A DNA stretch of 64,000 nt from Gordonia araii NBRC 100433 (GTDB taxonomy: Bacteria > Actinomycetota > Actinomycetes > Mycobacteriales > Mycobacteriaceae): the NCBI RefSeq assembly GCF_000241265.1, contig NZ_BAEE01000048.1, positions 1 through 64,000 on the forward strand, in the 5' to 3' direction. Made by a program: the position numbers and the translations under genes. Each line of letters opens with the position of its first letter. Position 1 is the stretch's first letter. Positions 14,046 through 59,013 of this stretch are shown here, piece after piece. Under the pieces are notes generated by a model. The model was not told where the DNA came from and ran no database searches. It saw only the letters and a program-made list of their open reading frames with translations.

Positions 14046-14060
14046 TAGAACATGTTCTAG
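14045..14060. promoter_or_regulatory. KstR-type operator upstream of LLM/SDR operon
   Basis: A perfect 16-bp palindrome CTAGAACATGTTCTAG. Its central 14 bases fit the published KstR pattern T-N2-AAC-N2-GTT-N2-A. It lies 40 bp before the ATG of the oxidoreductase gene, in a position to block transcription. Two other sites of the same pattern occur in the window. KstR recognition is inferred from the motif alone. Confidence 0.7.
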
Positions 14061-14100
14061 TGTGTGGGAGAGACACGCTGTCCCCTCCCAAGGAGCACCG

Positions 14101-14979
14101 ATGCGGTTCACATTCGCCGAGGCGATGACCGACCCCAGTTACTACGCACCACTGGCCCAAGCCGCCGAGGCCGCCGGGTACGACGGGATGACGATCCCCG
14201 ACTCGGTCGCCTACCCGGAAGAATCCGACGCGAAGTACCCCTACACCCCCGACGGCAACCGCGAGTTCCTCGAGGACAAGGCCTTCATCGAAACCTTCAT
14301 CCAGGCCGCCGCGCTCGGTGCGGTCACGACGAAGATCCGCTTCACCCCTTTCGTCGTGAAGCTCCCCATCCGCCCGCCCGCCCTCGTCGCCAAGCAGGCG
14401 ATGTCGGTGGCATACCTGACGAACAACCGTCTCGCCCTCGGTGTCGGCACCAGCCCCTGGCCCGAGGATTACGAGATCATGGGCGTCGACTTCGCTCGCC
14501 GCGGCAAGCGGATGGACGAGTGCATGGACATCATCAAGGGCCTGGAAACCGGCGACTACTTCGAATTCCACGGCGAGTTCTACGACATCCCCAAGATCAA
14601 GATGAGTCCCGCTCCGACCGAGCACATCCCCCTGCTCGTCGGCGGTCACGCCGATCTGGCCCTCAAGCGCGCGGTCATCCGGGGCGACGGATGGATGCAC
14701 GGCGGCGGCCCGCCCGAGGAACTCGACGCGCTGCTTGAGAAGATCGCCGGGATTCGCAAGGCGGAGGGCAAGGAGAACGACCCGTTCGAGATCCACGTGA
14801 TCTCGACGGACGCCTACACGGTGGACGGCTGCAAACGTCTGGAAGACAAGGGCATCACCGACGTCATCGTCGGCTTCCGCATGCCGTACATCATGGGGTC
14901 CGACGACGAGCCGTTGCAGAAGAAGGTCGACCACCTCAACTGGTACGGCGAGAACATCATCGCCAAGGTCAACGGCTGA
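14101..14979 (+). CDS. LLM-class F420-dependent oxidoreductase (Rv3520c-like)
   Basis: 292 residues, luciferase-like TIM barrel. A strong AAGGAG lies 7 nt before ATG 14101. Family features include the N-terminal F-A-E-A strand, D-G-M-T-I-P-D-S, the L-A-L-G-V-G-T-S-P-W-P turn (about 116-126) near the F420 site, and P-L-L-V-G-G-H near residue 180. The KstR-like palindrome upstream parallels Rv3520c, an F420-type oxidoreductase in the mycobacterial KstR regulon. A steroid-related substrate is therefore likely but not shown. The stop codon TGA shares its last base with the ATG of the SDR gene. Confidence 0.8.
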   Translation: MRFTFAEAMTDPSYYAPLAQAAEAAGYDGMTIPDSVAYPEESDAKYPYTPDGNREFLEDKAFIETFIQAAALGAVTTKIRFTPFVVKLPIRPPALVAKQAMSVAYLTNNRLALGVGTSPWPEDYEIMGVDFARRGKRMDECMDIIKGLETGDYFEFHGEFYDIPKIKMSPAPTEHIPLLVGGHADLALKRAVIRGDGWMHGGGPPEELDALLEKIAGIRKAEGKENDPFEIHVISTDAYTVDGCKRLEDKGITDVIVGFRMPYIMGSDDEPLQKKVDHLNWYGENIIAKVNG

Positions 14980-15728
14980 TGGGACGCCTCGACGGGAAGG
15001 TCGCGCTGATCAGCGGCGGTGCACGCGGCCTCGGCGCGTCGCACGCGCGTCGATTCGTCGACGAAGGCGCCAGCGTGGTGATCGGCGACATTCTCGTCGA
15101 AGAAGGCAAAGCGCTGGCCGACGAACTCGGTGCCGCGGCGGCCTTCGCCGAACTCGATGTGACCGACGCGGATTCGTGGGCTCGGGCCGTCGAGCAGACG
15201 ACCGAAAGATTCGGCACGCCGACGATCCTCGTCAACAACGCCGGCATCCAGAACGGCGGGCTGATCGGGTCCTTCGACCTCGGCGAGTGGGACCGGATCG
15301 TCGCGATCAATCTGACCGGCTCATTCCTGGGCTGCCGCGCGGTGGCCGACCCGATGATCGCCGCCGGGAACGGCGGTTCGATCATCAACACGTCGTCGAT
15401 ATCGGGCTTCCTCGGTTCGGTCGGCACCCACGGTTACAGCGCCACGAAGTTCGCCATCCGGGGCCTGACCAAGTCGGTGGCCGTCGAACTCGCACCCCAC
15501 AACATCCGGTGCAACTCGATCCACCCGGCCCAGGCGCGCACCGACATGGCCGCCGGCATCCCCGAGGATTTCCTGCAGACACCGCTGGGGCGGGCCGCCG
15601 ATCCAGCGGAGATCACCAACGTCGTGCTCTTCCTCGCGTCGGACGAAAGCTCCTACTGCACGGGTGCGGAATACCTCGTCGACGGCGGTCTCACGTCGAC
15701 CGTTCCGTACAACCTGCCGACTAGCTAG
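14979..15728 (+). CDS. SDR-family dehydrogenase, 20-beta/3-alpha hydroxysteroid dehydrogenase-like (Rv2002/FabG3-like)
   Basis: 249 residues, classical short-chain dehydrogenase. The cofactor loop is G-G-A-R-G-L-G (about 14-20), with D38 in G-D-I-L-V-E-E favouring NAD(H), then N-N-A-G, catalytic Ser in N-T-S-S-I-S-G, and Y-S-A-T-K. The stretches G-A-R-G-L-G-A-S-H, N-S-I-H-P and S-S-Y-C-T-G-A-E-Y-L-V-D-G-G closely follow Rv2002 (FabG3), a 20-beta-hydroxysteroid dehydrogenase. Start and stop overlap with the LLM gene, so both are one operon under the KstR-like site. The substrate is probably a steroid. Confidence 0.8.
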   Translation: MGRLDGKVALISGGARGLGASHARRFVDEGASVVIGDILVEEGKALADELGAAAAFAELDVTDADSWARAVEQTTERFGTPTILVNNAGIQNGGLIGSFDLGEWDRIVAINLTGSFLGCRAVADPMIAAGNGGSIINTSSISGFLGSVGTHGYSATKFAIRGLTKSVAVELAPHNIRCNSIHPAQARTDMAAGIPEDFLQTPLGRAADPAEITNVVLFLASDESSYCTGAEYLVDGGLTSTVPYNLPTS

Positions 15729-15732
15729 CTGG

Positions 15733-16101
15733 TCAGCTGCTCGACCAGACGCCCAGCTCGTTGCCGGCCGGGTCGGCGAAGTGGAACCTGCGTCCGCCCG
15801 GAAACTCGTACGGGTCTTGGAGAATCGTTCCGCCCGCGTCTTGAACGGCCGTCACCGTGGCGTCCAGATCGTCCGAGTAGAGCAGGATCAGCGGTCCGCC
15901 CGCGCCGCGAGGTTCCGCCTCGGGCGTGAATCCGCCATCCTCGTCGTCGCCTGGCCGGGACTTGAATCCGACGTACGCCGGGGCGCCGGGCGGCCCGTAG
16001 TCGGCGAACGACCAACCGAACGCTGCGCCGTAGAACGACTTGGCCGCGGCCAGGTCCGGTGCCGGTAGCTCGACGTAGTTGACGCTGTGATGGATGATCA
16101 T
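15733..16101 (-). CDS. VOC-family (glyoxalase/bleomycin-resistance-like) protein
   Basis: 122 residues made of two beta-alpha-beta-beta-beta modules. The first begins H-H-S-V-N-Y-V-E-L-P-A-P-D-L-A-A-A-K-S-F-Y; the second ends F-H-F-A-D-P-A-G-N-E-L-G-V-W. Likely metal ligands are His4/5 and the Glu of the final motif, but one or more may be lost. The family is too broad for a substrate to be named. It is convergent with the SDR gene (4 bp between stops) and 31 bp downstream of the GtrA gene's stop. Confidence 0.75.
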   Translation of the reverse strand: MIIHHSVNYVELPAPDLAAAKSFYGAAFGWSFADYGPPGAPAYVGFKSRPGDDEDGGFTPEAEPRGAGGPLILLYSDDLDATVTAVQDAGGTILQDPYEFPGGRRFHFADPAGNELGVWSSS

Positions 16102-16132
16102 GCGTCGACCGTATGCCGTCGGTCCGACATCG

Positions 16133-16645
16133 CTATTTCATCTTGAAGATGACGGCGCGCTGCACCACGAAGTTGATGACCGTCGCGGTGCCCTGGGCGA
16201 TGACGAACGACACCGCCGACATCAGCTTGTTGTCGCTGGTCCACAGGTGCTCGAGGACCGCATAGATACCCACCTGGACGGCAAACGTCGTCAGATACAG
16301 CAGCATGACCGCGACGAAGCGGGCGGCGCTCGGCTCGGCCTTGAACGTCCAGCGCCGGTTGATCAGATACGCGGTCGTCGTACCGAGTACGAAACCCAGT
16401 GCTTTGGCGTACGCGGGATCCCACCCGAGGCCGTACTGCAGCAGCATCGTGAGGCCGAAGTCGAGCACCGCCGACCCTGCGCCGGTGATGATGAATCGGA
16501 TGATCGCGGTCTTGAGATCGACGTCGTCGGCCATCTCCTCCGGACCGTCGATCGGCAGCTCCATCGGAGCCGGGATGTGCGGGTGGTGCTCCGCCTCGCC
16601 GGGCCCGCCAGCGGACTTTTCAGAATCAGGCACGCAGACCACCAT
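16133..16645 (-). CDS. GtrA-family membrane protein (Rv3789-like)
   Basis: 170 residues with four membrane helices. The core contains A-Y-L-I-N-R-R-W-T-F-K-A-E-P-S, R-F-V-A-V-M-L-L-Y and V-I-A-Q-G-T-A-T-V-I-N-F-V-V-Q-R-A-V-I-F, which closely follow Rv3789, the gene next to dprE1 in M. tuberculosis. Proposed roles there are decaprenyl-phospho-arabinose handling or anchoring of AftA. Here the first 45 residues are an extra polar segment; translation could instead begin at Met38. It is divergent from plsC with only 19 bp between start codons. Confidence 0.85.
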   Translation of the reverse strand: MVVCVPDSEKSAGGPGEAEHHPHIPAPMELPIDGPEEMADDVDLKTAIIRFIITGAGSAVLDFGLTMLLQYGLGWDPAYAKALGFVLGTTTAYLINRRWTFKAEPSAARFVAVMLLYLTTFAVQVGIYAVLEHLWTSDNKLMSAVSFVIAQGTATVINFVVQRAVIFKMK

Positions 16646-16664
16646 AGGTGGTAGACCTCAGTAC

Positions 16665-17351
16665 ATGTCGATTCACGACCTGCGCGCAGCATTCCGGTAC
16701 CGGGTCGCCCGACACCTCCTGATCGGTCCGTTCCTCTTCGCGTGGGGACGCCCGAAGACCACCGGGCACCAGAACATCCCCCGGAAGGGGCCGGTCATCC
16801 TCGCCGCCAATCACCTGGCGATCAGCGACTCCTTCTACGTGGTGCAGTGTGCCCGGCGGCCGGTGATGTTCCTGGCGAAGTCGGACTATTTCACCCAGCC
16901 CGGACTCAAGGGCCGATTCAAGAAGACCTTCTTCAGCGGCATGGGCCAGATCCCCGTCGACCGAAGCGGAGGGGCTGCCGCGTCTCCCGCGATCGAGGCG
17001 GCGACGTCCATCGTCGAAGGCGGCGGCGCCTGGGGCATCCACCCGGAGGGAACTCGCTCGCCCGACGGGAGGATGCATCGAGGCAAGACGGGTGTCGTCC
17101 GCGTGGCGGTCGCGACGGGCACACCGATCGTCCCGATCGCGCTCACCGGCACGGACAACCGGTCGTGGCGCAACTTCTGGAAGTCACGCGTGACCGTCGA
17201 CATCTTGCCCGCGATGGATTTGAGCTGGGTCGACCCCGACGACGAGAAGCAGATCCGCGAGGCCACCAATCGGCTGATGCAAGCGATCCGATCCGAGACC
17301 GGCCAGGAGTACGTCGATGTCTACGCCAAGCCGGGCAGCGCGACGAAATAG
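16665..17351 (+). CDS. 1-acyl-sn-glycerol-3-phosphate acyltransferase (PlsC family)
   Basis: 228 residues from ATG 16665; the longer open frame upstream is antisense to the GtrA gene. The acyltransferase has N-H-L-A-I-S-D-S at residues 45-52 (the usual H-x4-D motif, His46 and Asp51), a G-x-I-P-V-D-R-S block (about 93-100) and H-P-E-G-T-R-S-P-D-G (about 126-135). It probably acylates lysophosphatidic acid or a related lipid at the membrane. It is not part of the M. tuberculosis dprE1 neighbourhood, so it is an addition here. Confidence 0.85.
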   Translation: MSIHDLRAAFRYRVARHLLIGPFLFAWGRPKTTGHQNIPRKGPVILAANHLAISDSFYVVQCARRPVMFLAKSDYFTQPGLKGRFKKTFFSGMGQIPVDRSGGAAASPAIEAATSIVEGGGAWGIHPEGTRSPDGRMHRGKTGVVRVAVATGTPIVPIALTGTDNRSWRNFWKSRVTVDILPAMDLSWVDPDDEKQIREATNRLMQAIRSETGQEYVDVYAKPGSATK

Positions 17352-17423
17352 CCGGGTCGGGATCACCGGACGTCGCACCGGTGACCGCATCGGGCATCCA
17401 TCCGACCGCGGAGTAGCGTCCCA

Positions 17424-18770
17424 ATGATGAACCACCACTTGGCAAGCCCCCGCCGGGCACGGTCGGCGCAAATCTGGGCACGGTCGGCGGGAAACCGGGC
17501 ACGGTCGGCGGGAAACCGGGCACGGTCGGCGGGAAACCGGGCACGGTCGGCGGGAAACCGGGCACGGTCGGCGGCGGTGGCGACATCGATCGCCGTCGCC
17601 ACCACCATCACCACCGTCGCCGTCACGTCGATAGCCGTCGGACCGGCGTCGGCCGATGTCCTCCCGCCGACCGGCGCACCGGATTGGTCGGGCATGGACG
17701 TGCGTCACGTCGGCCCGCCGTCGGGGAGTAAGCCGGGCCAGCTGCTGGGTCAGGTGCCGCTGGCGTCACACCTGAGCGTGCCGGCCGCCGGTACCGCCGT
17801 GCGCATCCACTACGTAACACCGGATCAGCACCGCAAGACCGCTTCGAGCACCGGAGTCGTCTTCCTACCGCGCGGCAAGGCACCAGCTGGCGGATGGCCG
17901 GTGATCGCGTGGGCGCACGGCACGGTCGGGCTCGGCGACTCCTGCACGCCGTCGGCCCAGCCGCGCAGCGCACGCGACGCCCACTACCTGTCCCACTGGC
18001 TTCGTCAGGGCTACGCCATCGTCGGCACCGATTACGCCGGGCTGGGCACCCCCGGCCTGATGAGCTACCTCAACGGCAGCACCGAAGCCCACTCCATCGT
18101 CGACTCGGTGAAGGCCGCCAGGAAGACCGGATTGCCGCTGGCCAAACGCTGGACGATCGTCGGCCAGTCCCAAGGTGGCGGCGCGGCGCTGGCCGGCGCC
18201 CATCAGGCGACGGCACTGTCCCGCGGAACCGGGCTGGACTACCGCGGGGTGGTCGCCACGGGCACTCCGGCCAACATCGAGCACATCGTGTCGCTGGCCG
18301 GTCCGTACGCTGTGGCCCCGCTGCCCACGGGGCTGGCGACCTACATGGCCTACATCTTCGCCGGCTTCGGCGAGGCAAGGCCCGACCTGCACGTCGAGCG
18401 GATCCTGACGCCGCTCGGACGCCGCATGGTCGCCCAGGCGAAGACCCGGTGCTACCCGGAGATGTCCACGAGCGTCGAGCGCACGATCGGCCACTGGTTC
18501 AACGCGCCGCTGCGGTCGATCCCCGGCGTCCTCGGAGCGCTCACCGCCTACATGGGCACGCCGATCGACGGATACGACCGGCCCATCTTCCTGGGCCAGG
18601 GTCTGCTCGACATCGATGTGCCTGCACCGTCGTCGCTCTCGCTGTACGCCCAGCTGCGCGCCAACAACCAGCCTGTCGAGCTCCACGTCTACCCCAACCG
18701 CGACCACTCCGGGACCGTCTACGCCTCGACGGCCGATTCGACGCCGTTCCTGGCGCGAATCATGCGGTGA
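17424..18770 (+). CDS. secreted lipase (secretory lipase family) with repeat-expanded signal sequence
   Basis: 448 residues. The N-terminus contains six tandem 7-residue units (R-A-R-S-A-G-N), then a hydrophobic run and an A-S-A cleavage-like site near residue 77. The n-region is thus unusually long and positive. The mature alpha/beta hydrolase has the nucleophile elbow G-Q-S-Q-G-G (about 242-247), an oxyanion region W-A-H-G-T-V-G, an Asp in L-L-D-I-D-V and a His in N-R-D-H-S-G-T. This matches secreted triacylglycerol lipases of the LIP family. Alternative ATG is 17427; translation could also begin after the repeats, but no good start is seen there. Confidence 0.8.
   Translation: MMNHHLASPRRARSAQIWARSAGNRARSAGNRARSAGNRARSAGNRARSAAVATSIAVATTITTVAVTSIAVGPASADVLPPTGAPDWSGMDVRHVGPPSGSKPGQLLGQVPLASHLSVPAAGTAVRIHYVTPDQHRKTASSTGVVFLPRGKAPAGGWPVIAWAHGTVGLGDSCTPSAQPRSARDAHYLSHWLRQGYAIVGTDYAGLGTPGLMSYLNGSTEAHSIVDSVKAARKTGLPLAKRWTIVGQSQGGGAALAGAHQATALSRGTGLDYRGVVATGTPANIEHIVSLAGPYAVAPLPTGLATYMAYIFAGFGEARPDLHVERILTPLGRRMVAQAKTRCYPEMSTSVERTIGHWFNAPLRSIPGVLGALTAYMGTPIDGYDRPIFLGQGLLDIDVPAPSSLSLYAQLRANNQPVELHVYPNRDHSGTVYASTADSTPFLARIMR
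17455..17580. repeat. six tandem 21-bp repeats inside the lipase signal region
   Basis: Units beginning GGGCACGGTCGGCGGGAAACC start at 17455, 17476, 17497, 17518, 17539 and 17560, an exact 21-bp period. The first and last units diverge. Because 21 is a multiple of three the array stays in frame and encodes repeated R-A-R-S-A-G-N. Copy number is likely to vary between strains by slippage. Confidence 0.9.
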
Positions 18771-18877
18771 GATGCCCACTCGACGCAGGTGAGGTGCCCA
18801 CTCGGCAGGGTTGAGGTGCCCACTCGGCGCAGGTGAGGTGCCCACTCGGCGGGGGCGAGGTGCCCACTCGGCGCGTC
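18771..18877. repeat. five tandem 22-bp repeats upstream of dprE1
   Basis: The segment TGCCCACTCGGC recurs at 18773, 18795, 18817, 18839 and 18861, exactly 22 bp apart, within a unit of about AGGTGCCCACTCGGCGCAGGTG. It lies between the lipase stop and the dprE1 start (65 bp from the last copy). Twenty-two bp is about two helical turns, so each copy faces the same side of DNA. It could be a binding array or simple tandem expansion. Confidence 0.85.
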
Positions 18878-18941
18878 GCCTCGGTCACAACCTGACCGAC
18901 CACAGACCTCTCTCAGGTCGGCGCGGGTACCCTTCTCAGCG

Positions 18942-20363
18942 ATGTCTACCAGTGAACTCCCCATCGAGACCCGACGCCTCGTCGGCTGGGCGCGCACCAC
19001 GCCGATCACCGGACACGTGCTGTCCACCCCCGACGTCGAGGTCATCGCCAAGGCTGTCGCGCAGGTCGCCGACGACAACGCCGACAAGCCGTCGTACCTG
19101 CGCCGCGGCGTGATCGCCCGCGGCCTGGGCCGCTCGTACAACGAGTCGGCCCAGAACACCGGCGGCCTGACCGTCGACATGACCCGGCTCAACCGGATCC
19201 ACGACATCGACGCCGACACGGCCGTCGTCGACGTGGACGCCGGCGTCAGCCTGGACGAACTGATGCAGGCCGCGCTGCCGTCCGGACTCTGGGTCCCGGT
19301 GCTGCCGGGCACCCGCCAGGTCACCATCGGCGGCGCCATCGCCCACGACATCCACGGCAAGAACCACCACAGCCAGGGCAGCTTCGGCAACCACGTCGTG
19401 GAGATGCAGCTGCTGGTCGCCGACGGCCGCATCCTGACGCTCAAGCCCGAGGGCAGCGACGACGACCCGGATGGCTCGCTGTTCTGGGCCACCGTGGCCG
19501 GCATCGGCCTCACCGGCATCATCCTGCGCGCCAAGATCGCGATGAAGCGCACCGAGAGCGCCTACTTCATCGCCGACACCGCGACGACCAAGACACTCGA
19601 CGAGACGATCGCCCTGCACCTCGAGGACGGCTTCGAGGATGGCTACGAATACGCCTCGGGCTGGTTCGACTCGATGTCCAAGCCGCCGAAGCTGGGGCGC
19701 GGCTCGTTCAGCCGCGGCAACCTCGCCCGCGTCGACCAGCTACCGCCCAAGCTGCAGAAGGACCCGCTCAAGTTCGACGTCAAGCCGCTCGCGTCGTTGC
19801 CGAACATCTTCCCGAACGGCCTCGCCAACAAGCTGGACTTCGGCCTGATGTCGGAGTTCTACTACCGGCTGGGCTCGAACTCCCAGGGCTCGGTGAAATC
19901 GCTGCCGGCGTTCTACCACATGCTCGACATCGTCGGGAACTGGAACAACGCCTATGGTCGGACCGGCGGATTCGCGCAGTACCAGTTCATCGTGCCGACC
20001 GGCAACGAGGACGAGTTCAAGCGCCTGATCCAGGACATCCAGGCCTCCGGCCACGTCAGCTTCCTCAACGTGATCAAGCTGTTCGGCGACGGCAACAAGG
20101 CGCCGCTGAGCTTCCCGTTCAAGGGCTGGAACGTCTGCCTCGACTTCCCGGTCAAGCGCGGGCTCGCCGAGTTCTTGAACGAACTCGACCGCCGCGTCAT
20201 GGCGATGGGCGGGCGGCTCTACACCGCCAAGGATTCCCGCACGTCGGCGCAGAGCTTCCACGCCATGTATCCGCGGCTCGACGAGTGGCGCGCGACGCGC
20301 AGGGCCATCGACCCGACCGGCGTCTTCATGTCCGACATGGGCCGCCGCCTCGAACTCGCCTGA
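18942..20363 (+). CDS. dprE1: decaprenylphosphoryl-beta-D-ribose 2'-oxidase DprE1
   Basis: 473 residues. FAD-binding oxidase of the VAO family: the FAD loop region R-G-L-G-R-S-Y-N (about 60-67), the conserved [14 protein letters not shown] (130-143), and Cys399 in G-W-N-V-C-L-D-F. This cysteine is equivalent to M. tuberculosis Cys387, the residue attacked by benzothiazinones. It oxidises decaprenyl-phospho-ribose to the 2'-keto form; DprE2 then reduces it, giving the only arabinose donor for the cell wall. The tandem array upstream is the only notable feature in its promoter region. Confidence 0.96.
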
Positions 20364-20392
20364 CCCCGTTCTCCAGCACTGAAGGAACCACC

Positions 20393-21154
20393 ATGATCAA
20401 CGCCGTCGGCGCACCCCAATCCATCCTGGTCCTCGGAGGCAGCTCCGAGATCGGCCTGGCCATCACCGCCGAGTACCTCAAGCTCGGCCCGGCGCGCGTC
20501 GTGCTCGCCTGCGTACCGGGCGACGAGGCCGCCGCTGCCGCCGTCGAGTCGATGAAGTCCGCCGGTGCCACCGACGTCAGCGTGATCGACTTCGACGCGC
20601 TGGACACCGCCAGCCACCCCGGCGTCGTCGATCAGGCCTTCGCCAACGGCGACATCGACGTCGCCATCGTCGCCTTCGGCATCCAGGGCGACGACGAGCA
20701 GGCCTGGCAGGACCAGCGCCTGGCCGTGCTGGAGGCGCAGATCAACTACACCGCCGCCGTCTCCGTCGGCGTCCTGCTCGGCGAGAAGATGCGCGCCCAG
20801 GGCCACGGCCAGATCATCGCGATGAGTTCGGTCGCCGGTGAGCGCGTGCGCCGGTCCAACTTCGTCTACGGCTCCACCAAGGCCGGGCTCGACGGCTTCT
20901 ACCTCGGCCTGGGCGAAGCGCTGCGCGAGTACGGCCCGCGGGTGCTGGTCATCCGTCCCGGCCAGGTACGCACCCGTCTGTCGGCGCATGTGAAGGAAGC
21001 GCCGCTGACAGTGAACAAGGAGGACGTCGCCGAATTGGCGGTCGCCGCCGCGGGCAAGGGCAAAGAGATCGTATGGGCGCCCGGCCCGTTCCGCTTCATC
21101 ATGATGGTGCTCCGCCACATCCCGCGGGCGGTGTTCCGCAAGCTGCCGATCTGA
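20393..21154 (+). CDS. dprE2: decaprenylphosphoryl-2-keto-ribose reductase DprE2
   Basis: 253 residues, short-chain dehydrogenase. The nucleotide loop is G-G-S-S-E-I-G (about 15-21). The active site has Ser in M-S-S-V-A-G and Y-G-S-T-K. The C-terminus is basic and hydrophobic, ending R-A-V-F-R-K-L-P-I, as in the family, and may sit on the membrane. ATG 20393 has GAAGGA upstream. It acts directly after DprE1, 29 bp upstream. Confidence 0.95.
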
Positions 21155-21159
21155 CCCCT

Positions 21160-21215
21160 GGCGCCGGGAGTCCGCGAGCGGGCCAAGTGTCCTTGGCACC
21201 GGGAGTCCGCGAGCG
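21160..21215. repeat. two direct copies of a 21-bp sequence between dprE2 and aftA
   Basis: GGCGCCGGGAGTCCGCGAGCG at 21160-21180 recurs at 21195-21215 with one change (GGCACC). The repeats lie 35 bp apart in the 67-bp gap and end just before the aftA start. No clear role; could act in regulation or be short duplicated DNA. Confidence 0.7.
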
Positions 21216-21221
21216 CACCGT

Positions 21222-23240: not shown

Positions 23241-23243
23241 CGC

Positions 23244-24023: not shown

Positions 24024-24044
24024 CCTAGGTTTAGTGTATGGTCT

Positions 24045-24060
24045 ACGCTAGATAGCGTAT
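24045..24060. promoter_or_regulatory. palindromic operator between tetR and drrA-like gene
   Basis: TACGCTAGATAGCGTA: 7-bp perfect arms (TACGCTA/TAGCGTA) around a 2-bp centre. It lies 21 bp before the ABC ATPase ATG (which has AAAGGAG) and 21 bp before the repressor start on the other strand. Size and position suit a TetR dimer controlling both directions. Confidence 0.7.
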
Positions 24061-24081
24061 GAGATACACAAAGGAGTTCTC

Positions 24082-25757: not shown

Positions 25758-25768
25758 ACACCATCGCG

Positions 25769-26236: not shown

Positions 26237-26305
26237 GTCACAACAGTAAGCCGTTGACGCGACTGATGCCGGTAGCGGCGGTCCCAACGACTACCATGGC
26301 CCTTT

Positions 26306-47383: not shown

Positions 47384-47393
47384 CGGGTCCAGC

Positions 47394-49301: not shown

Positions 49302-49492
49302 TCGTACTCCTGTGCCGTGTCCCGCGAAGCGGTTCCACGGCTGTTCTAGGGCCTCCGCGGCACGCAGTGGGGGCTGCAGACCGGCGGTGGGTCGTGTGGT
49401 CAGGTCAGGTTGTCCCTAGTCCGTCGCGCGCATCGGCGAGCCCGCCGCGGTCATACCGCGACGCGCCTGTCGGGCGCGGATCCTCGGCTATC

Positions 49493-50464
49493 TTACTCTC
49501 CCTTGAGAATGGGAATGATCGGCGCGAACGCATCCATCTGCGTGGGGAAAACGCCCACGTAGGACATGGCGGTCCGCTCGCGCACGTTGCGGATCTGGTC
49601 GGCGATCTCCTCGAAGGAGCCGATCGCGATGTACGGCGAGCTCAGCACGTCGTCGACGGTGAACTCCGTGTCCCGCTCGATGTTCGGGGGGTAGCCCTGG
49701 TCGAGCGCCTTGAGCGCCATCTCGGCGGTCGCGACACGGTCATCGGTGATGACGATCACGGCGATCGTCCAGTTCAACTCGATGTCGTCGAACCGGTCGC
49801 CGGCGACGTCGCGGATCCGGTCGACCCGCTCTGCCGTCTTGTCGATGGTCATGTCCGACAGCTTCATCTTGCCCTCGGGCGTGGTGCCCGGCGCGACGGA
49901 GATGATGTCGGCGTGCTTGGCCGCGAGCGCCAGCATTTTGGGGCCGCCACCGCCGACGGCGATCGGCGGACGCGGGCCCTGGCGCGGGCGGGGGCTGCCT
50001 TCGAGCCCGTTGATCTGATAGAACTCGCCGTCGAAGTTGACGGTCTCGCCGCGCATCAGACCGTCGAGGATGGTCAGCGCCTCGTCGAGCCGGCGGATGC
50101 GTTTGCCCGGGGATTCGAATTCGATGCCCGCCTTGTCGAATTCGTCCTTCATCCAGCCCGCGCCGATGCCCAGTTCAAGGCGCCCCTTGGAGAGGACGTC
50201 GATGGTCGTGGCCTCCTTGGCCAGGATCGCGGGGTGGCGGAAACCGTTCGCCAGCACCGACGTGCCCAAGCGAATGGTGCTCGTCGCCTGAGTCAGCGCG
50301 CCCAGCGCGGCCATCGGACCGACCTGATTGCCCAGGTGGTCGGGGACGGCGAAGGTGTCGAAGCCGTACTCCTCGGCGGTTTGGGCGAGTTGGACGAACT
50401 TGCGCGCGCCGCCCTCTTCCTTATTGCCCTCACCACCGGCTCCGAATCGGAACTTCCGGGTCAT
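49493..50464 (-). CDS. LLM-class F420-dependent oxidoreductase (TIGR03621-like)
   Basis: 323 residues, TIM-barrel luciferase-like. Opens with F-R-F-G-A-G, then G-F-D-T-F-A-V-P-D-H-L, L-E-L-G-I-G-A-G-W near residue 97, and P-I-A-V-G-G-G-G-P near residue 166. It probably uses F420, on family grounds; the substrate is unknown. In M. tuberculosis fadD32 is followed upstream directly by Rv3802c, so this gene is inserted into the conserved mycolate cluster. The gap to fadD32 (191 bp) suggests fadD32 has its own promoter. Confidence 0.78.
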   Translation of the reverse strand: MTRKFRFGAGGEGNKEEGGARKFVQLAQTAEEYGFDTFAVPDHLGNQVGPMAALGALTQATSTIRLGTSVLANGFRHPAILAKEATTIDVLSKGRLELGIGAGWMKDEFDKAGIEFESPGKRIRRLDEALTILDGLMRGETVNFDGEFYQINGLEGSPRPRQGPRPPIAVGGGGPKMLALAAKHADIISVAPGTTPEGKMKLSDMTIDKTAERVDRIRDVAGDRFDDIELNWTIAVIVITDDRVATAEMALKALDQGYPPNIERDTEFTVDDVLSSPYIAIGSFEEIADQIRNVRERTAMSYVGVFPTQMDAFAPIIPILKGE

Positions 50465-50563
50465 CCACCACTCCTGTATCGGCCATCAGAAACTCAACCG
50501 ACGATACGGTACGCGGTCCTCGCCTAACCGGCCAAATGCGCGATCGTGAAGCTCCGATGCTGA

Positions 50564-51556: not shown

Positions 51557-51560
51557 CGGG

Positions 51561-52085
51561 TCAGCAGTAGTTTTCGTGCGCGGCCCGAATGACCTTGTCG
51601 GCCTTGATATTCGCCTGCTCGACGGTCTTCTCGCCGGGGCCGACGGCGGCGACGACGAAAGCCTTCATCGACGTCGGGTCGCCGTTCTTGCCGCGCTGGT
51701 CGCACACGAACTGCGCCATGGTCAGGGCAATGGTGTTGTCGGTGTCGCCCATGATGGTGACGTTCATCCGCTTGAGCGCGTCGAGGTAGCGCTTGGTCTT
51801 GGCGTTCACCGGGGCCGTGGCCTCGCCCGACTTGTTCGTCGAGCCGGGGAAATCCGACGGCTGCGTCGTCGACGGGTTGGGCGCGGTGGCCGGCATGCCC
51901 GGCTTCGACGTGTCGGTGCCCGACGGTGCCGCGATCGACGTGGGGGATTCGAAATGCGTGGTCGTTACCGAGGTGGCGGTGATCGGCGCGCTGGCCGTCG
52001 AATCATCACCGCCGCACGCCGTGCACATGCCCACGATCAACCCGGCCGCTCCCGCGGCGAGTGTGATGCGCTGCAACCTGGTCAC
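51561..52085 (-). CDS. putative DUF732-type lipoprotein
   Basis: 174 residues from GTG 52085; the longer open frame starting at 52124 adds a non-signal segment. The N-terminus has a hydrophobic stretch and lipobox (C-T-A-C, Cys24), then a Thr/Pro/Ser-rich linker of about 70 residues. The C-terminal helical domain has Y-L-D-A-L-K-R-M-N-V and two cysteines (F-V-C-D and final E-N-Y-C) that could pair, the pattern of DUF732. It is 4 bp before the cutinase gene, so they are co-expressed. Function unknown. Confidence 0.7.
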   Translation of the reverse strand: MTRLQRITLAAGAAGLIVGMCTACGGDDSTASAPITATSVTTTHFESPTSIAAPSGTDTSKPGMPATAPNPSTTQPSDFPGSTNKSGEATAPVNAKTKRYLDALKRMNVTIMGDTDNTIALTMAQFVCDQRGKNGDPTSMKAFVVAAVGPGEKTVEQANIKADKVIRAAHENYC

Positions 52086-52328
52086 CGTTTCCCACTTTCC
52101 TCGCACTGCCCGATCGTCGGGCACTCAACCGCAAAGATTACCCGCGATTGGCGCCCAAACCGCGCAGCAAATGCCGCCACCTGCGACGACGCCCGAGATT
52201 CTTGGCGATATCTCAGTCCGGGGCCAGCGATCCGACAGCTAAGCGTCGCCAGGTGTTGTCTGCGCCACGCGGCGACGCTACCCGCACGCGTCAGATGTCC
52301 GTTTTGCCGATCTTCATCTAATGTGATC

Positions 52329-52342
52329 TAGAACACGTTATA
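52329..52342. promoter_or_regulatory. KstR-type operator upstream of ABC transporter genes
   Basis: TAGAACACGTTATA fits T-N2-AAC-N2-GTT-N2-A. It is 38 bp before the GTG of the substrate-binding protein gene. The rest of the 295-bp gap between the divergent genes shows no other feature. Confidence 0.65.
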
Positions 52343-52380
52343 GTTCGCCGCAAGTCCTCAACGACTGAAGGGAACCGACA

Positions 52381-53610
52381 GTGAAAACACCGTTCAACGT
52401 GGGGCGGATCACCCGCTCGACGATTGCCGCCGGCGCAGCCGGCGTATTGATTCTGGGCGCGCTGACCGCGTGTACCAGCGATGGCGACGATGCCGGACCG
52501 ACGACCGAGCTGCCGACCTCGGCGGCGACCGGCGACGCGGTCAAGATCGGTCTGATCGGCGCCTCCGGCGGCGTGGTGTCGATCCCGCAGCTGACGCAGG
52601 GCGCCGAGGCCGCGGCGAAGTACCTCAACGACAACGGCGGCGGGATCAACGGGCACAAGGTCGAGCTGGTCATCTGCAACCAGCAGGAGGATCCGGCCTC
52701 GGCGACCAAGTGCGCCAACGAGATGGTGGAGAAGAAGGTCGCCGTCGTCGCGGTCCCGATGACCTCGCAGGGCGCGGTCATGCTGCCGATCGTCGCGCGG
52801 GCGGGCATCCCCTATGTCGCTCAGGCGCCGGTTTCCGCCGTCGAGATGGGCGCGCCGGGCGGATTCATGATCTCCGGCGGCACCGTCGCCGTGCTCAACG
52901 CCGAGGCACAGACCGCGGCGAAGGAGGGCGTCAAGAAGTTCACCATCCTGATCGGCGACTCCGGTGACGCCGCAGCGTCGGTGGGCCAGATGGCACAGGC
53001 CTTCTTCAAGCCGGCCGGCATCGAGGTCAAGGTCGTCACCATCCCGTCGAACGTCGCCGACCCGACCCCGCAGATCAGCGCCGGTCTCGCCGACAAGCCG
53101 GACGCGGTGACCATCCTCGGCGACTCCCGTCAGTGCATCTCCAGCCTGAAGGCGCTCAAGACCGCGGCGCCCGAGGTGAAGAAGTACCTGATCGCCAGCT
53201 GCCTGGACAAGACGGTGACCGACAACGTCGGGATGGACTCCGTTGAAGGCGCCAAGGCCTTCACCACCGTCATCACCACCGGTGAAGAGGAGTCGGTGGT
53301 CCAGTACCGCTCGGTGGTCGCCAAGTACGCGCCCGACGTCGACCCCAACGGCCTGGCCTACCTCGGCTACCAGGTGATCAGCTCGATCGCGGCGGTCGGC
53401 AAGGACCTGCCGGCCGGGCCGATCAGCGCGCAGCAGTACAAGGACGCGCTGGCGGCGGCCAAGGACGTTCCGGTTCCGGCTGCCCCGGGCCTCACGTTCA
53501 CCTGCAACCGCACGGCATTCCCGCAGGCTCCCAACCTGTGCAGCAAGTCGATGCTCGTCAGTGACGTCGGCACCGACGGAAAGCTGGAGAACAGCACCGT
53601 CGTGAACTAG
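52381..53610 (+). CDS. ABC transporter substrate-binding lipoprotein (branched-chain amino acid/hydrophobic ligand type)
   Basis: 409 residues. Signal with lipobox L-G-A-L-T-A-C (Cys31). The mature part is a type I periplasmic-binding fold of the LivJ class: V-K-I-G-L-I-G-A-S-G-G, then a Y-L-N-D-N-G-G-G-I-N-G-H motif in the first lobe, and A-Y-L-G-Y-Q-V near the second. GTG start with AAGGGAA upstream. Relatives bind amino acids, amides, urea or aromatic/hydrophobic acids. The KstR-like site and nearby FadD17 suggest a steroid-derived or side-chain acid as ligand, which is inference. Confidence 0.85.
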   Translation: MKTPFNVGRITRSTIAAGAAGVLILGALTACTSDGDDAGPTTELPTSAATGDAVKIGLIGASGGVVSIPQLTQGAEAAAKYLNDNGGGINGHKVELVICNQQEDPASATKCANEMVEKKVAVVAVPMTSQGAVMLPIVARAGIPYVAQAPVSAVEMGAPGGFMISGGTVAVLNAEAQTAAKEGVKKFTILIGDSGDAAASVGQMAQAFFKPAGIEVKVVTIPSNVADPTPQISAGLADKPDAVTILGDSRQCISSLKALKTAAPEVKKYLIASCLDKTVTDNVGMDSVEGAKAFTTVITTGEEESVVQYRSVVAKYAPDVDPNGLAYLGYQVISSIAAVGKDLPAGPISAQQYKDALAAAKDVPVPAAPGLTFTCNRTAFPQAPNLCSKSMLVSDVGTDGKLENSTVVN

Positions 53611-53694
53611 CGACAACCGCATTCGGGGGCCGCCACGTGCGGCCCCCGAATGTGTTGTCCCGACCGTCCCCGCACTTCTCCGACAGGTAGGACC

Positions 53695-56502
53695 ATGGAC
53701 CACTTCGCCTATCTCGCCATGGGCATCGGCAACGGAGCCGTCTACGCGGCCCTCGGCCTCGCCCTGGTGATGACCTACAAGAGTTCCGGCGTGGTGAACT
53801 TCGCCACCGGAGCCATCGCGCTCTACACGGCCTACACCTACGCCTACCTGCGACAGGGCAAGCTGCTCAACCCCATCCCCGGTTTCGACGCCAAGATCGA
53901 CCTGGGCACCAAGCTCAGCGTCGGCGCGGCGATGGCCGGTGCGCTCGCCATCGCGACGGTGCTCGGCGTCCTGCTCTATCTCATCGTCTTCCGGCCGATG
54001 CGCACCGCGCCGGCCCTTGCGAAAGCGGTGGCCGCCATCGGCGTCATGCTCGTCATCCAGGCGCTGATCAGCCTGCAGGTAAAGGACGACTCGCCGGCGG
54101 TGAAGGCGATCTTCCCGTCGGGCACGATCACGATCGGCGGCCAACGCGTCACCACCGACCACTTCTGGCTGGCCGCAGTCGTCATCGGCATCGCCGTCTG
54201 CGCGGCGCTGGTGCTGCGCTACACCCGGTTCGGGATCGCCACCGAGGCGGCCGCCGAGTCGGAGAAGGGCGCCCTGGTCACCGGCCTGTCGCCGAACCGC
54301 ATCGCGTGTGCCAACTGGGCGCTGTCATCGGCGACCGCCGGTCTGGCGGGAATCCTGATCGCGCCCGTCGCCACGCTCAGCCCGTTCGCCTACAGCCTCT
54401 TCCTGGTCCCCGCACTGGCCGCGGCGCTCGTCGGCAACTTCACCAGCATCGGCGTGACCGTCGGCGCCGGTCTGGTCATCGGCATGCTGATGAGCGAGGT
54501 GACCAAACTCCAGGACGTCTTCGACTGGCTGCCGCGCTACGGTCTCGGCGAGGCCGTGCCGCTCGTGCTGATTCTGGGCTTCCTGCTGCTCCGCGGCCAA
54601 GCGCTGCCGGGGCGCGGCGCGTTGATACGACAGGATCTGGGACGCGCGCCTCGACCGAACCGGCTGATCCTCCCGACCGTGCTCGGCGTCGCCGTCGCGA
54701 TCGCCGCCCTCTACCTCACTTCGGGCAGCCTGCGCCTGGCCGTGATCATGAGCATGATCTTCGCGATCATCGCCCTCTCCCAAGTGGTCATCACCGGATA
54801 CGCCGGCCAGGTGTCGCTGGCGCAACTCACGCTGGCGGGCGCCGGCGCGTTCGCCTTGGCGCGCATCACCGCAGACTGGGGTCTGCCCTTTCCCCTCGCG
54901 CCGCTGCTGGCCGCACTGGTCGCCACCGTGATCGGCATCGTCGTCGGGCTGCCGTCGCTGCGCGTGCGGGGGCTGCCGTTGATGGTGGCGACCCTGGCGC
55001 TTGCGGTCTTCCTGGAGCAGGCGTGGTTCCAGAACCCCGACCTCAACGGGCAGAGCGAACAGCTCAAGAACATGGACGACCCGACCGGTGCCGCCCTCCG
55101 GATCCCGGACCCGACGTTGTTCGGCATCGACATGGCGGTCGGCTCCGGGGACGGCTACCGCATCTCGTTCGGCGTGCTGTGCCTGACCGTGCTGACGCTG
55201 TGCGCACTCGGCGTGGCCTTCCTGCGGCGCAGCCGCCTCGGTGCGGCGATGCTCGCCGTGCGCGCCAACGAGCGGTCGGCGGCCGCCTCGGGGATCAACG
55301 TCGGCGCGACCAAACTGATCGCCTTCGCCGTCGCCTCCTTCCTCGCCGGCCTCGGCGGTGTCCTCCTCGCCTACCAGCAGACGCTGGCCGCGGCGTCCAG
55401 CTACGCCGTCCTCGCGGGCATCGGCCTGTTCGCCGCCTTCTACATCGCGGGCGTGACGTCGGTGTCCGGTGCGTTGCTCGGCGGCATCCTCGCGCCCGGC
55501 GCGCTGATGGCGTTCATCCTCGACAAGTACCTCCACTTCGGCGACTTCTACATGCTGGCCACCGGCATCCTGCTGATCCTCACCGTGGTGACCAGCCCCG
55601 ACGGGATCAGCGGGCACCTCCACCGGATCCCGCTGCCCGCATGGCTGCGCGGCCGCACCCGGGTCGCGACGGCGAGCGCCACACCCGCCACCGCACTACT
55701 GGGCGAGGCGGAACAGCCGGGCGACTCGGCCGGGATCGACGGGCCCGACCGCACGCCGGTGCTGTCGCTCAACGACGTGACCGTCGCCTACGGCCCGGTC
55801 ACCGCCGTGAACAGTGTCGACCTCGATCTCCGTCCGGGCGAGATCGTCGGCCTGATCGGGCCGAACGGTGCGGGCAAGACCACCCTGGTCGACGCGATCA
55901 GCGGTTTCGCGTCGTCGACCGGCTCGATCACCCTGGGCGGGGAAAGCCTCATCGGGCTCTCGCCGCACCGCCGTGCCCGCTCCGGCCTGGGTCGCAGCTT
56001 CCAGGACGTCGAGCTCTACGAAGAGCTGACCGTCGCCGAGAACGTCAGTGTCGGCGTCGCGCGTGACGAGCACGACGTCGCGGGTACCGTCACCCAGGCG
56101 CTGGGCCTTCTCGAGATCGCGGACCTGGCCGACACGATGGTCGCCGACCTCTCGCAGGGTCAGCGGCAGCTCGTCTCGGTCGCCCGCGTGCTGGCCGGGC
56201 GACCGACCGTCGCGCTGCTCGACGAGCCGGCCGCCGGCCTCGACTCGACCGAGAGTCGCTGGCTGGGCGAACGCCTGCGGTCCGCCGCTTCGCGCGGGGT
56301 CACGATGCTGCTCATCGACCACGACATGGACCTGGTCCTGCGCCTGTGCGATCGGGTGATCGTGCTCGACCTCGGTGAAGTCGTCGCGGCCGGACCACCG
56401 GAATTGATCCGCACCGATCCGAGCGTGATCCGCGCCTACCTGGGCTCGACCGGCGAGCATCCCGGCGACGTCACGACCGCGAGCGAGGAGTCCCAGTCAT
56501 GA
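53695..56502 (+). CDS. fused LivH-LivM-LivG branched-chain-type ABC transporter (permease-permease-ATPase)
   Basis: 935 residues from ATG 53695. Residues about 1-300: LivH-like permease (G-A-V-Y-A-A-L-G-L-A-L-V-M, V-V-N-F-A-T-G-A). About 320-650: LivM-like permease (V-I-T-G-Y-A-G-Q-V-S-L-A-Q, L-R-V-R-G-L-P-L-M-V-A-T-L). About 685-930: LivG-like ATPase with Walker A G-P-N-G-A-G-K-T-T (near 720), signature L-S-Q-G-Q-R-Q, and Walker B V-A-L-L-D-E-P-A-A-G. The three usually separate subunits are one chain. The stop overlaps the livF-like start (ATGA). Confidence 0.9.
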   Translation: MDHFAYLAMGIGNGAVYAALGLALVMTYKSSGVVNFATGAIALYTAYTYAYLRQGKLLNPIPGFDAKIDLGTKLSVGAAMAGALAIATVLGVLLYLIVFRPMRTAPALAKAVAAIGVMLVIQALISLQVKDDSPAVKAIFPSGTITIGGQRVTTDHFWLAAVVIGIAVCAALVLRYTRFGIATEAAAESEKGALVTGLSPNRIACANWALSSATAGLAGILIAPVATLSPFAYSLFLVPALAAALVGNFTSIGVTVGAGLVIGMLMSEVTKLQDVFDWLPRYGLGEAVPLVLILGFLLLRGQALPGRGALIRQDLGRAPRPNRLILPTVLGVAVAIAALYLTSGSLRLAVIMSMIFAIIALSQVVITGYAGQVSLAQLTLAGAGAFALARITADWGLPFPLAPLLAALVATVIGIVVGLPSLRVRGLPLMVATLALAVFLEQAWFQNPDLNGQSEQLKNMDDPTGAALRIPDPTLFGIDMAVGSGDGYRISFGVLCLTVLTLCALGVAFLRRSRLGAAMLAVRANERSAAASGINVGATKLIAFAVASFLAGLGGVLLAYQQTLAAASSYAVLAGIGLFAAFYIAGVTSVSGALLGGILAPGALMAFILDKYLHFGDFYMLATGILLILTVVTSPDGISGHLHRIPLPAWLRGRTRVATASATPATALLGEAEQPGDSAGIDGPDRTPVLSLNDVTVAYGPVTAVNSVDLDLRPGEIVGLIGPNGAGKTTLVDAISGFASSTGSITLGGESLIGLSPHRRARSGLGRSFQDVELYEELTVAENVSVGVARDEHDVAGTVTQALGLLEIADLADTMVADLSQGQRQLVSVARVLAGRPTVALLDEPAAGLDSTESRWLGERLRSAASRGVTMLLIDHDMDLVLRLCDRVIVLDLGEVVAAGPPELIRTDPSVIRAYLGSTGEHPGDVTTASEESQS

Positions 56503-57242
56503 GTGCGTTGCGCTGTGCCGGCGTCGATGCCGGCTACGTGAAGAAGAGCCCGTGCGTGCGGGGCGTGGATCTCGCGGTCGACCGCGGCGAGATCGTCGCG
56601 CTGCTCGGCCCCAACGGCGCCGGGAAGACAACCCTCCTGATGACGCTGGCCGGGCTGCTGCCCCGTCTCGGCGGAGAGGTGCTCGTCGACGAGGAGCCGC
56701 TGCGCTCGGGCGACCCCCGTGCGGCTGTGCGCGCCGGCATGGTGCTGGTCCCCGACGATCGGGCGCTGTTCCGGAACCTCACCACCGCCCAGCACCTCCG
56801 GCTGGCCGTGCCCCGTGCCGGTCGCGGATCACTGGATCCCCGTCGCCGCAAGGCCGAATCGACCGAGGCGATCGACGGCGTACTGGCGCACTTCCCCGCG
56901 CTGACCAACCGGCTCGACGTCGCCGCCGGCGAGCTGTCCGGGGGCGAGCAACAGATGCTCGCCATCGCCCGTGCCCTGCTCCAGCGCCCGCGGATCCTGA
57001 TGATCGACGAGCTGAGCATGGGGCTCGCACCGGTCATCGTCGAATCGATGCTGCCCGTGCTGCGGTCGGTCGCCGAGCAGGAGGGAACGGCCGTGCTGCT
57101 CGTCGAACAGCATGTGCGACTGGCACTGGAGGTGGCCGACCGGGCCGTCGTCCTCGCGCACGGCGAGGTCGCGCTGACCGACGACGCCGCCGCCCTGGCA
57201 GCCGATTCCGCGCGTCTGGAGCAGGCCTACCTGGGCGTCTGA
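56499..57242 (+). CDS. LivF-type ABC transporter ATPase
   Basis: 247 residues. Walker A G-P-N-G-A-G-K-T-T-L (about 37-46), signature L-S-G-G-E-Q-Q-M-L (about 146-154), Walker B I-L-M-I-D-E-L-S-M-G-L-A-P, and switch V-E-Q-H-V. These match LivF. It pairs with the ATPase part of the fused protein. It contains a short insert near residues 104-120 (P-R-A-G-R-G-S-L-D-P-R) compared with typical LivF. Translationally coupled to the fused gene. Confidence 0.88.
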   Translation: MSALRCAGVDAGYVKKSPCVRGVDLAVDRGEIVALLGPNGAGKTTLLMTLAGLLPRLGGEVLVDEEPLRSGDPRAAVRAGMVLVPDDRALFRNLTTAQHLRLAVPRAGRGSLDPRRRKAESTEAIDGVLAHFPALTNRLDVAAGELSGGEQQMLAIARALLQRPRILMIDELSMGLAPVIVESMLPVLRSVAEQEGTAVLLVEQHVRLALEVADRAVVLAHGEVALTDDAAALAADSARLEQAYLGV

Positions 57243-57408
57243 CCGTATTTGGTGGTCGAGTGCCGGCATATTGGCGGTCGCGGCCCGCATAATTAGTGGT
57301 CACATGCGGCCTACTGATGGTCGCATGCCGGACATCATTTGGTGGTCGAGTGCCGGCGAGGCGCTAGCCGAGCCGGCGTATCGAGACCCGGCGAGAGTCC
57401 GGCCCGAC
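57243..57408. repeat. non-coding gap with interspersed repeat copies
   Basis: One full reverse copy of the 48-bp element lies at 57341-57388 and a partial copy begins at 57251. Two decayed fragments (TTAGTGGTCACATGCGGC, TGATGGTCGCATGCCGG) lie between. It separates the convergent livF-like and fadD17-like genes. Confidence 0.8.
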
Positions 57409-58989
57409 TCAACCCGAGACGATGTACTTCGTCCCGCGGGGCTCGCGCTCCCAGAGCTGCTCACCGTCGTGCGCCCTGGCACCCTCCTGCTTGAGCGCGC
57501 GCTTGATGATCTTGTTCGTCGCGGTCGTCGGCAGCTTCGGACTCACCCGGACGTAGCGCGGCCATGCCTTGGGCGAGAGATCGGGCTGTCCGGCGAGGAA
57601 GGAGGCGAAGGCCTCAGGCGTCGGGGTGTCGTCGCCGCTGGGCACGACCGCAGCCATCACCGCGTCGCCGACCGTGTCGTCGGGCACGCCGTACACGGCC
57701 ACCTGCCCGACCTCCGGCATGCGCTGCAGGATGCGCTCGATCGGCCCGGCGGTGAGGTTCTCACCGTCAACGCGCATCCAGTCGCCGGTGCGCCCGGCCA
57801 GGTAGATCCAGCCGTCGGCGTCGCGGTAGCCGAGATCGCCGGACCAGTACATGCCCTCGCGCATGCGCTCCGAGGTGGTGGCCTCGTCGTTGTAGTAGCC
57901 GGTGAACATTCCCGCGCCCGAGGTGTTGACGATCTCGCCGATCGCCTCGTCGGCGTTGAGGAGCGCACCGTTCTCGTCGAACTGCGCGACCGCGCATTCG
58001 GTGACCGTGGACGGGTTGTAGACGGCGACGCCGGGGAAGCCCTTGCCGATCGATCCCTTAGGCGTGCCCGGCTCCCGGGTGATGATGACGGCGAGTTCGC
58101 TGGAGCCGTAGCCGTCCCACACCATGCAGTCGAAGCGCCTGGCGAAGTCGTCGATGTCGCGGTCGGTGGCCTCGTTGCCGAATGCCGCGCGCAGCGGGTT
58201 GTCGGCGTCGTCGGGCCGCTCGGGTGTCGCCAGGATGTACGCGAGCGGCTTGCCGACGTAGTTCATGTAGGTCACGCCGAAGCGGCGGACATCGTCGAGG
58301 AACGTCGAAGCCGAGAACTTGGCCGGCACCATCGACGCGCCGCTGGCCGCGGCGACGCAGTAGCCGCCGAGCAGGGCGGCCGAGTGGAACAGCGGCATCG
58401 ACAGGTAACAGACGTCGTCGGCGGTGATCCCGAACTTTTCGACGAGCGGCGGACCGGCGAAGGGGATCAGCATGTGCGCGAGTTGGACCGGTTTCGGATC
58501 GCCGCTGGTTCCCGACGTGAAGATCAGCATGAACGGGTCGACGGCGCCCGGTGTCGAGTGCGGGGTCAATTCGGGCGCGGCGGCGACGCGCTGCGCCCAC
58601 TCGTCGGTCGAGGTGTCGAAGACTTGGACGTCGCCCAGGTCGAGCCCGTCGAGGAGCTCTCGGTGCTCGGCGTCGGTCAGGAGGATCTGGCAGTCGGCGC
58701 GCCGGATGTCGCGGGCGAGTCCCTCGCCCCGGCGCGTGTTGTTGATCCCGGCGGTCACGTAGCCGCCGAGCGCACCGGCGGCGATGGCGAAGAGCATCGT
58801 CGGCGTGTTGCCCAGGAGGACACCGATGTGCATCGGCCGCGACGAGTCGGCGGCATCCAGGACGGTGGCGGCGACGCGCCGCGCATCGGCAATGTACGCG
58901 CGCCAGCTCCACGTTCCGGTGTCGTGGCGGATCGCGATGCCGTCGTCGTCGGCGCGTTCGGCAAGGAGTTGGGTCACGGTTTCAGCCAT
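57409..58989 (-). CDS. fadD17: fatty-acyl/steroid-acyl-CoA synthetase FadD17-like
   Basis: 526 residues, adenylate-forming ligase. P-loop F-T-S-G-T-S-G-D-P-K (about 171-180), A5 W-D-G-Y-G-S-S-E, Y-W-S-G-D-L-G-Y-R-D, D-W-M-R-V-D-G-E-N, and lysine near the end in N-K-I-I-K-R. The stretches H-I-G-V-L-L-G-N-T-P, Y-V-G-K-P-L-A-Y-I-L-A-T-P-E and E-R-M-x-x-G-x-Y follow FadD17 (Rv3506) of the KstR-controlled cholesterol locus. It probably activates a sterol side-chain acid to its CoA ester. A KstR-like site lies 10 bp before its start. Confidence 0.82.
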   Translation of the reverse strand: MAETVTQLLAERADDDGIAIRHDTGTWSWRAYIADARRVAATVLDAADSSRPMHIGVLLGNTPTMLFAIAAGALGGYVTAGINNTRRGEGLARDIRRADCQILLTDAEHRELLDGLDLGDVQVFDTSTDEWAQRVAAAPELTPHSTPGAVDPFMLIFTSGTSGDPKPVQLAHMLIPFAGPPLVEKFGITADDVCYLSMPLFHSAALLGGYCVAAASGASMVPAKFSASTFLDDVRRFGVTYMNYVGKPLAYILATPERPDDADNPLRAAFGNEATDRDIDDFARRFDCMVWDGYGSSELAVIITREPGTPKGSIGKGFPGVAVYNPSTVTECAVAQFDENGALLNADEAIGEIVNTSGAGMFTGYYNDEATTSERMREGMYWSGDLGYRDADGWIYLAGRTGDWMRVDGENLTAGPIERILQRMPEVGQVAVYGVPDDTVGDAVMAAVVPSGDDTPTPEAFASFLAGQPDLSPKAWPRYVRVSPKLPTTATNKIIKRALKQEGARAHDGEQLWEREPRGTKYIVSG

Positions 58990-58999
58990 GCCCCAAATC

Positions 59000-59013
59000 T
59001 AGAACGTGTTACA
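59000..59013. promoter_or_regulatory. KstR-type operator upstream of fadD17-like gene
   Basis: TAGAACGTGTTACA (plus strand) fits T-N2-AAC-N2-GTT-N2-A. It is 10 bp from the ATG at 58989, so a repressor would overlap the start of a short-leader transcript. Confidence 0.65.

Follow-up and report, generated by a model that had tools for sequence, protein, structure and literature searches.

Predicted KstR operators precede an F420/LLM oxidoreductase gene, a Liv-type ABC importer operon and a FadD1-type acyl-CoA ligase gene in Gordonia araii

Introduction

KstR is a TetR-type repressor of sterol catabolism that, in other species, binds a 14-bp motif and represses transcription (PMC1995591; citations here and below refer to particular sections of the sources) and is released by a known inducer, 3-oxo-4-cholestenoic acid (PMC8399759). 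In Kendall 2007, KstR bound sites before Rv0953c and Rv0940c (PMC1995591). Here we analyze a 64,000-nt stretch of Gordonia araii NBRC 100433 (NZ_BAEE01000048.1, positions 1-64,000; hereafter the window), in which three sites carry this motif. One precedes genes for an F420/luciferase-like monooxygenase (LLM)-class oxidoreductase and a short-chain dehydrogenase/reductase (SDR), one a Liv-type ABC importer operon, and one a FadD1-type acyl-CoA ligase gene. We consider it highly probable that all three are KstR operators and that they belong to a G. araii regulon of roughly 30 to 35 scattered operators.

The finding extends the known regulon. It provides a conservation-backed KstR operator map for a Gordonia genome, adds a Liv-type importer and a FadD1-type ligase to the predicted targets of a sterol repressor, and replaces two wrong gene names that would have led later work astray.

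KstR and its predicted operators

Scoring used a matrix derived from Table 3 of Kendall 2007 (PMC1995591), whose 47 published sites themselves score 18.1-32.0 bits. The window contains exactly three matches to TNNAACNNGTTNNA, at 14046-14059, 52329-52342, and 59000-59013, against 0.09 expected, and none of 100 shuffles reaches three. Operator 1 (TAGAACATGTTCTA, 33.0 bits) lies 41 bp before ATG 14101, operator 2 (TAGAACACGTTATA, 27.5 bits) 38 bp before GTG 52381, and operator 3 (TAGAACGTGTTACA, 23.4 bits) 10 bp before ATG 58989 on the minus strand; the sites themselves are assigned no strand. All three also have the published flanks. The first-pass annotation of this DNA had described exact fits to T-N2-AAC-N2-GTT-N2-A at 10-45 bp from start codons, and these distances agree with it; it counted four controlled units, of which we see three. 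A divergent gene (51561-52085), whose start is 243 bp from operator 2, may be affected by that site as well.

The G. araii assembly (3.9 Mb in 98 contigs) encodes a single protein that passes the KstR model NF033703 (337.8 bits, cut-off 280), so a kstR gene is present, and none of 14 control genomes has a protein above that cut-off. This gene has its own operator, of 29.2 bits, 56 bp upstream. The 46 further matches to the model in the genome are weak, the runner-up reaching 42.4 bits.

Genome-wide, TNNAACNNGTTNNA occurs 48 times, compared with 10 for a reversed-pattern control, a frequency that does not equal chance, and all 48 sites fall in stretches that were inspected. Thirty of them score above 18 bits, and all of these lie outside called genes; 16 of the remaining 18, at or below 18 bits, are inside genes. 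A looser, one-mismatch form of the pattern is not above control across the genome (67 and 66 versus 59 and 71), and the signal therefore resides in the exact and high-scoring sites. When near-exact sites are included, 35 exceed 18 bits in 490 kb, 34 of them outside called genes, whereas 5 Mb of sequence simulated with matching dinucleotide composition gave one; because the 490 kb were picked by pattern, this contrast speaks to the quality of the sites and not to their density. Seven of the 35 sit 2 to 10 bp before a start codon, a placement that would fit repression of leaderless transcripts, which are common in mycobacteria.

Several genes beside strong sites encode steroid-catabolic enzymes, including HsaA (688.3 bits, cut-off 450), 3-oxosteroid 1-dehydrogenase (KstD; 971.7 bits, cut-off 788), a steroid 3-ketoacyl-CoA thiolase (726.7 bits, cut-off 515), EchA19 (439.5 bits, cut-off 400), and FadD8 (1029.6 bits, cut-off 875), while an HsaD-like neighbor falls under its cut-off (270.0 bits versus 400). 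The presence of a kstR equivalog, the good operator scores, and the strong sites before sterol-catabolic genes together uphold the earlier proposal that the window sites are KstR operators. All 36 Gordonia genomes searched contain the symmetric form TAGAACNNGTTCTA, at 7 to 17 copies each against 0 to 4 for the control; in the wider order, 2 of 23 genomes have it.

Additional KstR-type sites were recorded elsewhere in the genome. One of 21.0 bits (L038:5712-5725, contig C63) has a neutral-ceramidase-like gene (511.5 bits, cut-off 1200) on one side and an amidase-like gene on the other, and one of 27.2 bits (L043:5953-5966, contig C78) is 114 bp before a gene for an MmpL-like transporter (409.4 bits to MmpL3, cut-off 1400). 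A near-KstR site of 19.8 bits (L034:10288-10301, contig C48), flanked by genes for a steroid thiolase and a P450, overlaps with a stretch that fits the KstR2 pattern exactly. The KstR2 regulon was itself considered for the window and rejected: its operator, ANCAAGNNCTTGNT, has 5 matches in the genome versus 3 for the control, and none in the window.

The F420/LLM oxidoreductase unit

The first gene behind operator 1 (14101..14979, plus strand) encodes a 292-aa F420/LLM-class oxidoreductase of the TIGR03619 type (167.1 bits, cut-off 166.9) with a Bac_luciferase domain. It had been annotated as Rv3520c-like, a name that does not hold, as the protein scores 41.5 bits against TIGR03559 (cut-off 335), a model that two proteins encoded at other places in the genome do pass. 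Next comes an SDR gene (14979..15728, plus strand) that overlaps the stop codon of the LLM gene and whose product is predicted from sequence comparison to be Rv2002-like, of the hydroxysteroid dehydrogenase group, as first proposed; Rv2002 (solved as 1nff) is its best PDB match, with 292.8 bits versus 198.7 for the next. We take the products of Rv0953c and Rv0940c to be LLM proteins, and the unit-1 LLM protein presumably resembles Rv0953c.

Our Gordonia comparison set comprises this genome and 58 further genomes of the genus, with one omitted from the unit-1 count as its contig starts there. Upstream of the LLM orthologue, operator 1 exceeds 18 bits in each of the 58 genomes examined (30/30 and 28/28 loci). 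Among other genera of the family, where 48 genomes matched and 22 loci were examined, it scores above 15 bits in 19 of the 22, and the three misses all belong to one genus. Five of 30 Gordonia loci contain the SDR gene along with the LLM gene. Another G. araii LLM gene has a 28.9-bit operator (L041); its product is 27% identical to the unit-1 protein. The window also encodes a second F420/LLM oxidoreductase (49493-50464, minus strand; TIGR03621, 389.5 bits, cut-off 213.15), which lies beside fadD32 and has no KstR site.

The FadD1-type ligase

Operator 3 precedes a gene for a 526-aa acyl-CoA ligase (57409..58989, minus strand) that passes the FadD1 model NF009927 (901.9 bits, cut-off 800). Its earlier designation, FadD17-like, corresponds to NF005897, on which it scores 581.6 bits (cut-off 850). 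With both the Rv3520c and the FadD17 names wrong, the argument from two KstR-linked mycobacterial counterparts fails as it was written. The genome does encode a FadD17-like protein (658.3 bits, again under the 850 cut-off), the third gene behind another operator (L036), and the window ligase is 46% identical to it.

Forty-nine Gordonia genomes contain a match to the ligase, and 42 loci were compared; operator 3 scores above 15 bits at the equivalent place in 26 of these. Within the open-licence literature we found nothing joining Rv1750c, fadD1, and KstR, and make no claim that such a link is unpublished. Adjoining operator 3 is a gene (59095-59973, minus strand) for a 292-aa protein in which an AbiEi-type antitoxin domain is combined with a nuclease-like domain of the DUF559/MTES_1575 kind.

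The Liv-type importer

Behind operator 2 is a three-gene importer operon (52381-57242, plus strand). It encodes a 409-aa substrate-binding protein (52381..53610; Peripla_BP_6, 120.7 bits), a fused permease-permease-ATPase (53650..56502, starting at 53650 or 53695; two BPD_transp_2 stretches and ABC_tran), and a second ATPase with a profile match of the LivF/UrtE-like kind (56499..57242). The fusion, of about 940 aa, is conserved across the loci examined from Gordonia, Williamsia, and Nocardia. The closest named relative of the binding protein, at 84% identity, is from the metagenome-assembled Gordonia sp. UBA5067. Its predicted structure (14 sequences; mean predicted local distance difference test score, pLDDT, 83.2) is a type I binding fold, and the nearest folds include proteins that bind branched-chain amino acids, aromatic acids, or urea, and one that is named as a fatty-acid binder; the fold-neighbor lists contain no steroid binder, an absence that carries no evidential weight.

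The importer matched in 37 Gordonia genomes, and the 30 best loci (46-100% identity) were compared. Eight, including that of G. araii, have an operator above 18 bits before the importer, at a distance of about 50 bp in four of them and about 115 bp in the other four. In one Gordonia genome (G039, contig C126:3639-6228), the binding-protein gene occurs as a tandem pair. Before the importer gene of relatives that lack a KstR site, no other shared operator was established, the oriented rescoring covering the KstR score only. The open-licence literature yielded no paper that brings KstR and steroids together with ABC transporters, branched-chain amino acids, and binding sites, which we do not take to mean that the connection is unpublished.

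Predicted regulation

KstR control is very likely for the LLM-SDR unit and for the ligase, and likely for the importer in this species and in the few relatives that have the site. Without sterol, a KstR dimer would occupy each promoter and block transcription, and a sterol-derived ligand would free the dimer. Release would lead to production of the F420/LLM oxidoreductase with the Rv2002-like SDR, the Liv-type importer, and the FadD1-type ligase. The importer would then most likely bring in a steroid-derived acid or a related compound, while the ligase would couple an acid to CoA.

The window also includes cell-wall genes, among them those for DprE1, DprE2, galactan export, and FadD32, and presumably the emb genes and pks13. 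The first-pass annotation placed the operators inside a cell-wall region, which is correct as to location and does not extend to regulation; a matrix scan of the window returned no position above 10 bits other than the three operators, and the cell-wall genes are therefore neighbors and not evident targets.

The cyp51 neighborhood

Linkage across Gordonia was counted at a distance of up to 30 kb. By this measure cyp51 is linked to the ligase gene in 36 of 49 genomes and to the importer in 11 of 30, and importer and ligase are linked to one another in 12 of 28; split contigs lower all these counts. In G. araii the ligase and importer are neighbors, and cyp51 is on a different contig (C42). Identification of cyp51 is based on a relative's protein, which scores 650.1 bits to M. 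tuberculosis CYP51; the G. araii protein is 76% identical to that of the relative. As cyp51 is near-universal in the genus (56 of 59 genomes), its mere presence says little.

Genes around cyp51 encode an Rv0768-type aldehyde dehydrogenase (894.5 bits, cut-off 775), SDRs, an Abhydrolase_10 hydrolase, and a second P450 whose best solved match is a CYP125 ancestor (223.8 bits); an EcKL/APH-type kinase-like protein is encoded near the ligase. The order aldehyde dehydrogenase (Rv0768 type), SDR, TetR, P450, SDR, cyp51, ferredoxin is, we presume, that of M. tuberculosis Rv0763c-Rv0771. At the edge of the C42 cluster (L172:1560-1987), two perfect 31.9-bit KstR sites, 22 bp apart, precede an acyltransferase-like frame, which is 107 aa long in G. 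araii versus 264-265 aa in relatives. In 352 kb of cyp51 and neighboring regions, the genes preceded by sites above 15 bits are those for the ligase and the importer, an acyltransferase/thioesterase-like pair, and one other gene (L171); no such site stands directly before cyp51.

This gene neighborhood suggests that KstR may drive a CYP51-linked branch of metabolism. We tentatively propose, with less confidence than doubt, that the Gordonia regulon took in an auxiliary, cyp51-centered sterol branch that imports, demethylates, and CoA-activates 14-methylated or oxidized sterol compounds. Its members would perhaps be the Liv-type importer and the FadD1-type ligase together with the nearby CYP51, second P450, ferredoxin-sized protein, and aldehyde dehydrogenase, an assignment that is speculative. 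By the same conjecture, the branch might have been split in G. araii, leaving two pieces in the window that each retain a KstR operator. If true, the branch would give bacterial CYP51, the role of which a review calls unclear for M. tuberculosis (PMC6469627), a catabolic role, and should the cyp51 link hold, it would allow a direct test of CYP51 function in these bacteria.

Points of doubt and alternative explanations

Several observations weigh against a steroid-dedicated, KstR-controlled set of this extent. Of 49 genes scanned beside strong sites, many have no NCBIfam match at 1e-45, and a sterol-only regulon is therefore not established. Operator 3 is weakened in 13 of the 42 ligase loci, where the core and one arm are kept and the outer base of the other arm is lost, and it is absent in 3. 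Operator 2 is absent in 22 of the 30 Gordonia importer loci, one of which (L060) is the inner copy of a tandem pair, and the Williamsia and Nocardia importer loci examined also have no KstR operator. KstR control is therefore not a general feature of the importer. The type I binding fold is close to binders of many ligand classes; steroids are thus not singled out. KstR binding in Gordonia, sterol induction, and both substrates are what we infer.

The most serious alternative is that the importer carries cargo unrelated to steroids, such as amino, aromatic, or fatty acids, and that its KstR site is a recent regulatory gain. Both the restriction of the operator to 8 of 30 loci and the identity of the nearest folds favor this explanation, to which we give somewhat less than an even chance; against it, the operator, importer, and ligase remain linked, with the importer recurring near the ligase and near cyp51, and the importer operators are found at two positions.

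It is improbable that some of the sites instead serve a different TetR regulator whose palindrome is identical or nearly so, in which case the unit concerned would respond to another signal. The genome encodes dozens of TetR-type proteins, including the KstR-model runner-up within the cyp51 cluster on C42, and the cholate gene cluster of R. jostii RHA1 is reported to include a KstR homologue (PMC8399759). However, only one protein is over the KstR cut-off, the next being far below it, and the window sites fit a matrix derived from KstR sites. Finally, that the three sites are chance matches to a short, loose pattern is scarcely credible: weak matches do arise by chance, mostly inside genes, but these three far exceed expectation, score highly, and occupy promoter positions, and sites 1 and 3 are conserved at the same position in relatives.

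Comparison with known systems

KstR operators thus remain our preferred explanation of the three sites, and the genes behind them can be set beside described counterparts. CamABCD of R. jostii RHA1 (ro04885-ro04888) is likewise an ABC importer serving steroid catabolism (PMC8399759, PMC6498646); compared by gene make-up, it has four genes, versus three in Gordonia with the permease-permease-ATPase fusion. Cholate genes are reported as not conserved in Gordonia (PMC4810484). The window ligase belongs to the same ligase subgroup as CasI and FadD17, yet it is under the cut-off for either (518.8 bits for CasI, cut-off 900). Rv2002, the closest solved relative of the window SDR by a clear lead, is without a KstR site in the site table of Kendall 2007 (PMC1995591), whereas the SDR gene stands behind operator 1.

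As a whole, the Gordonia set adds the Liv-type importer and the FadD1-type ligase, neither of which appears in the sections of PMC1995591 covered, which include the target tables only in part. It shares with the KstR regulon of M. smegmatis and M. tuberculosis the same 14-bp palindrome and flanks, an autoregulated kstR, and sterol genes beside strong sites. F420/LLM genes, as Rv0953c and Rv0940c are taken to be, are also among the targets in both.

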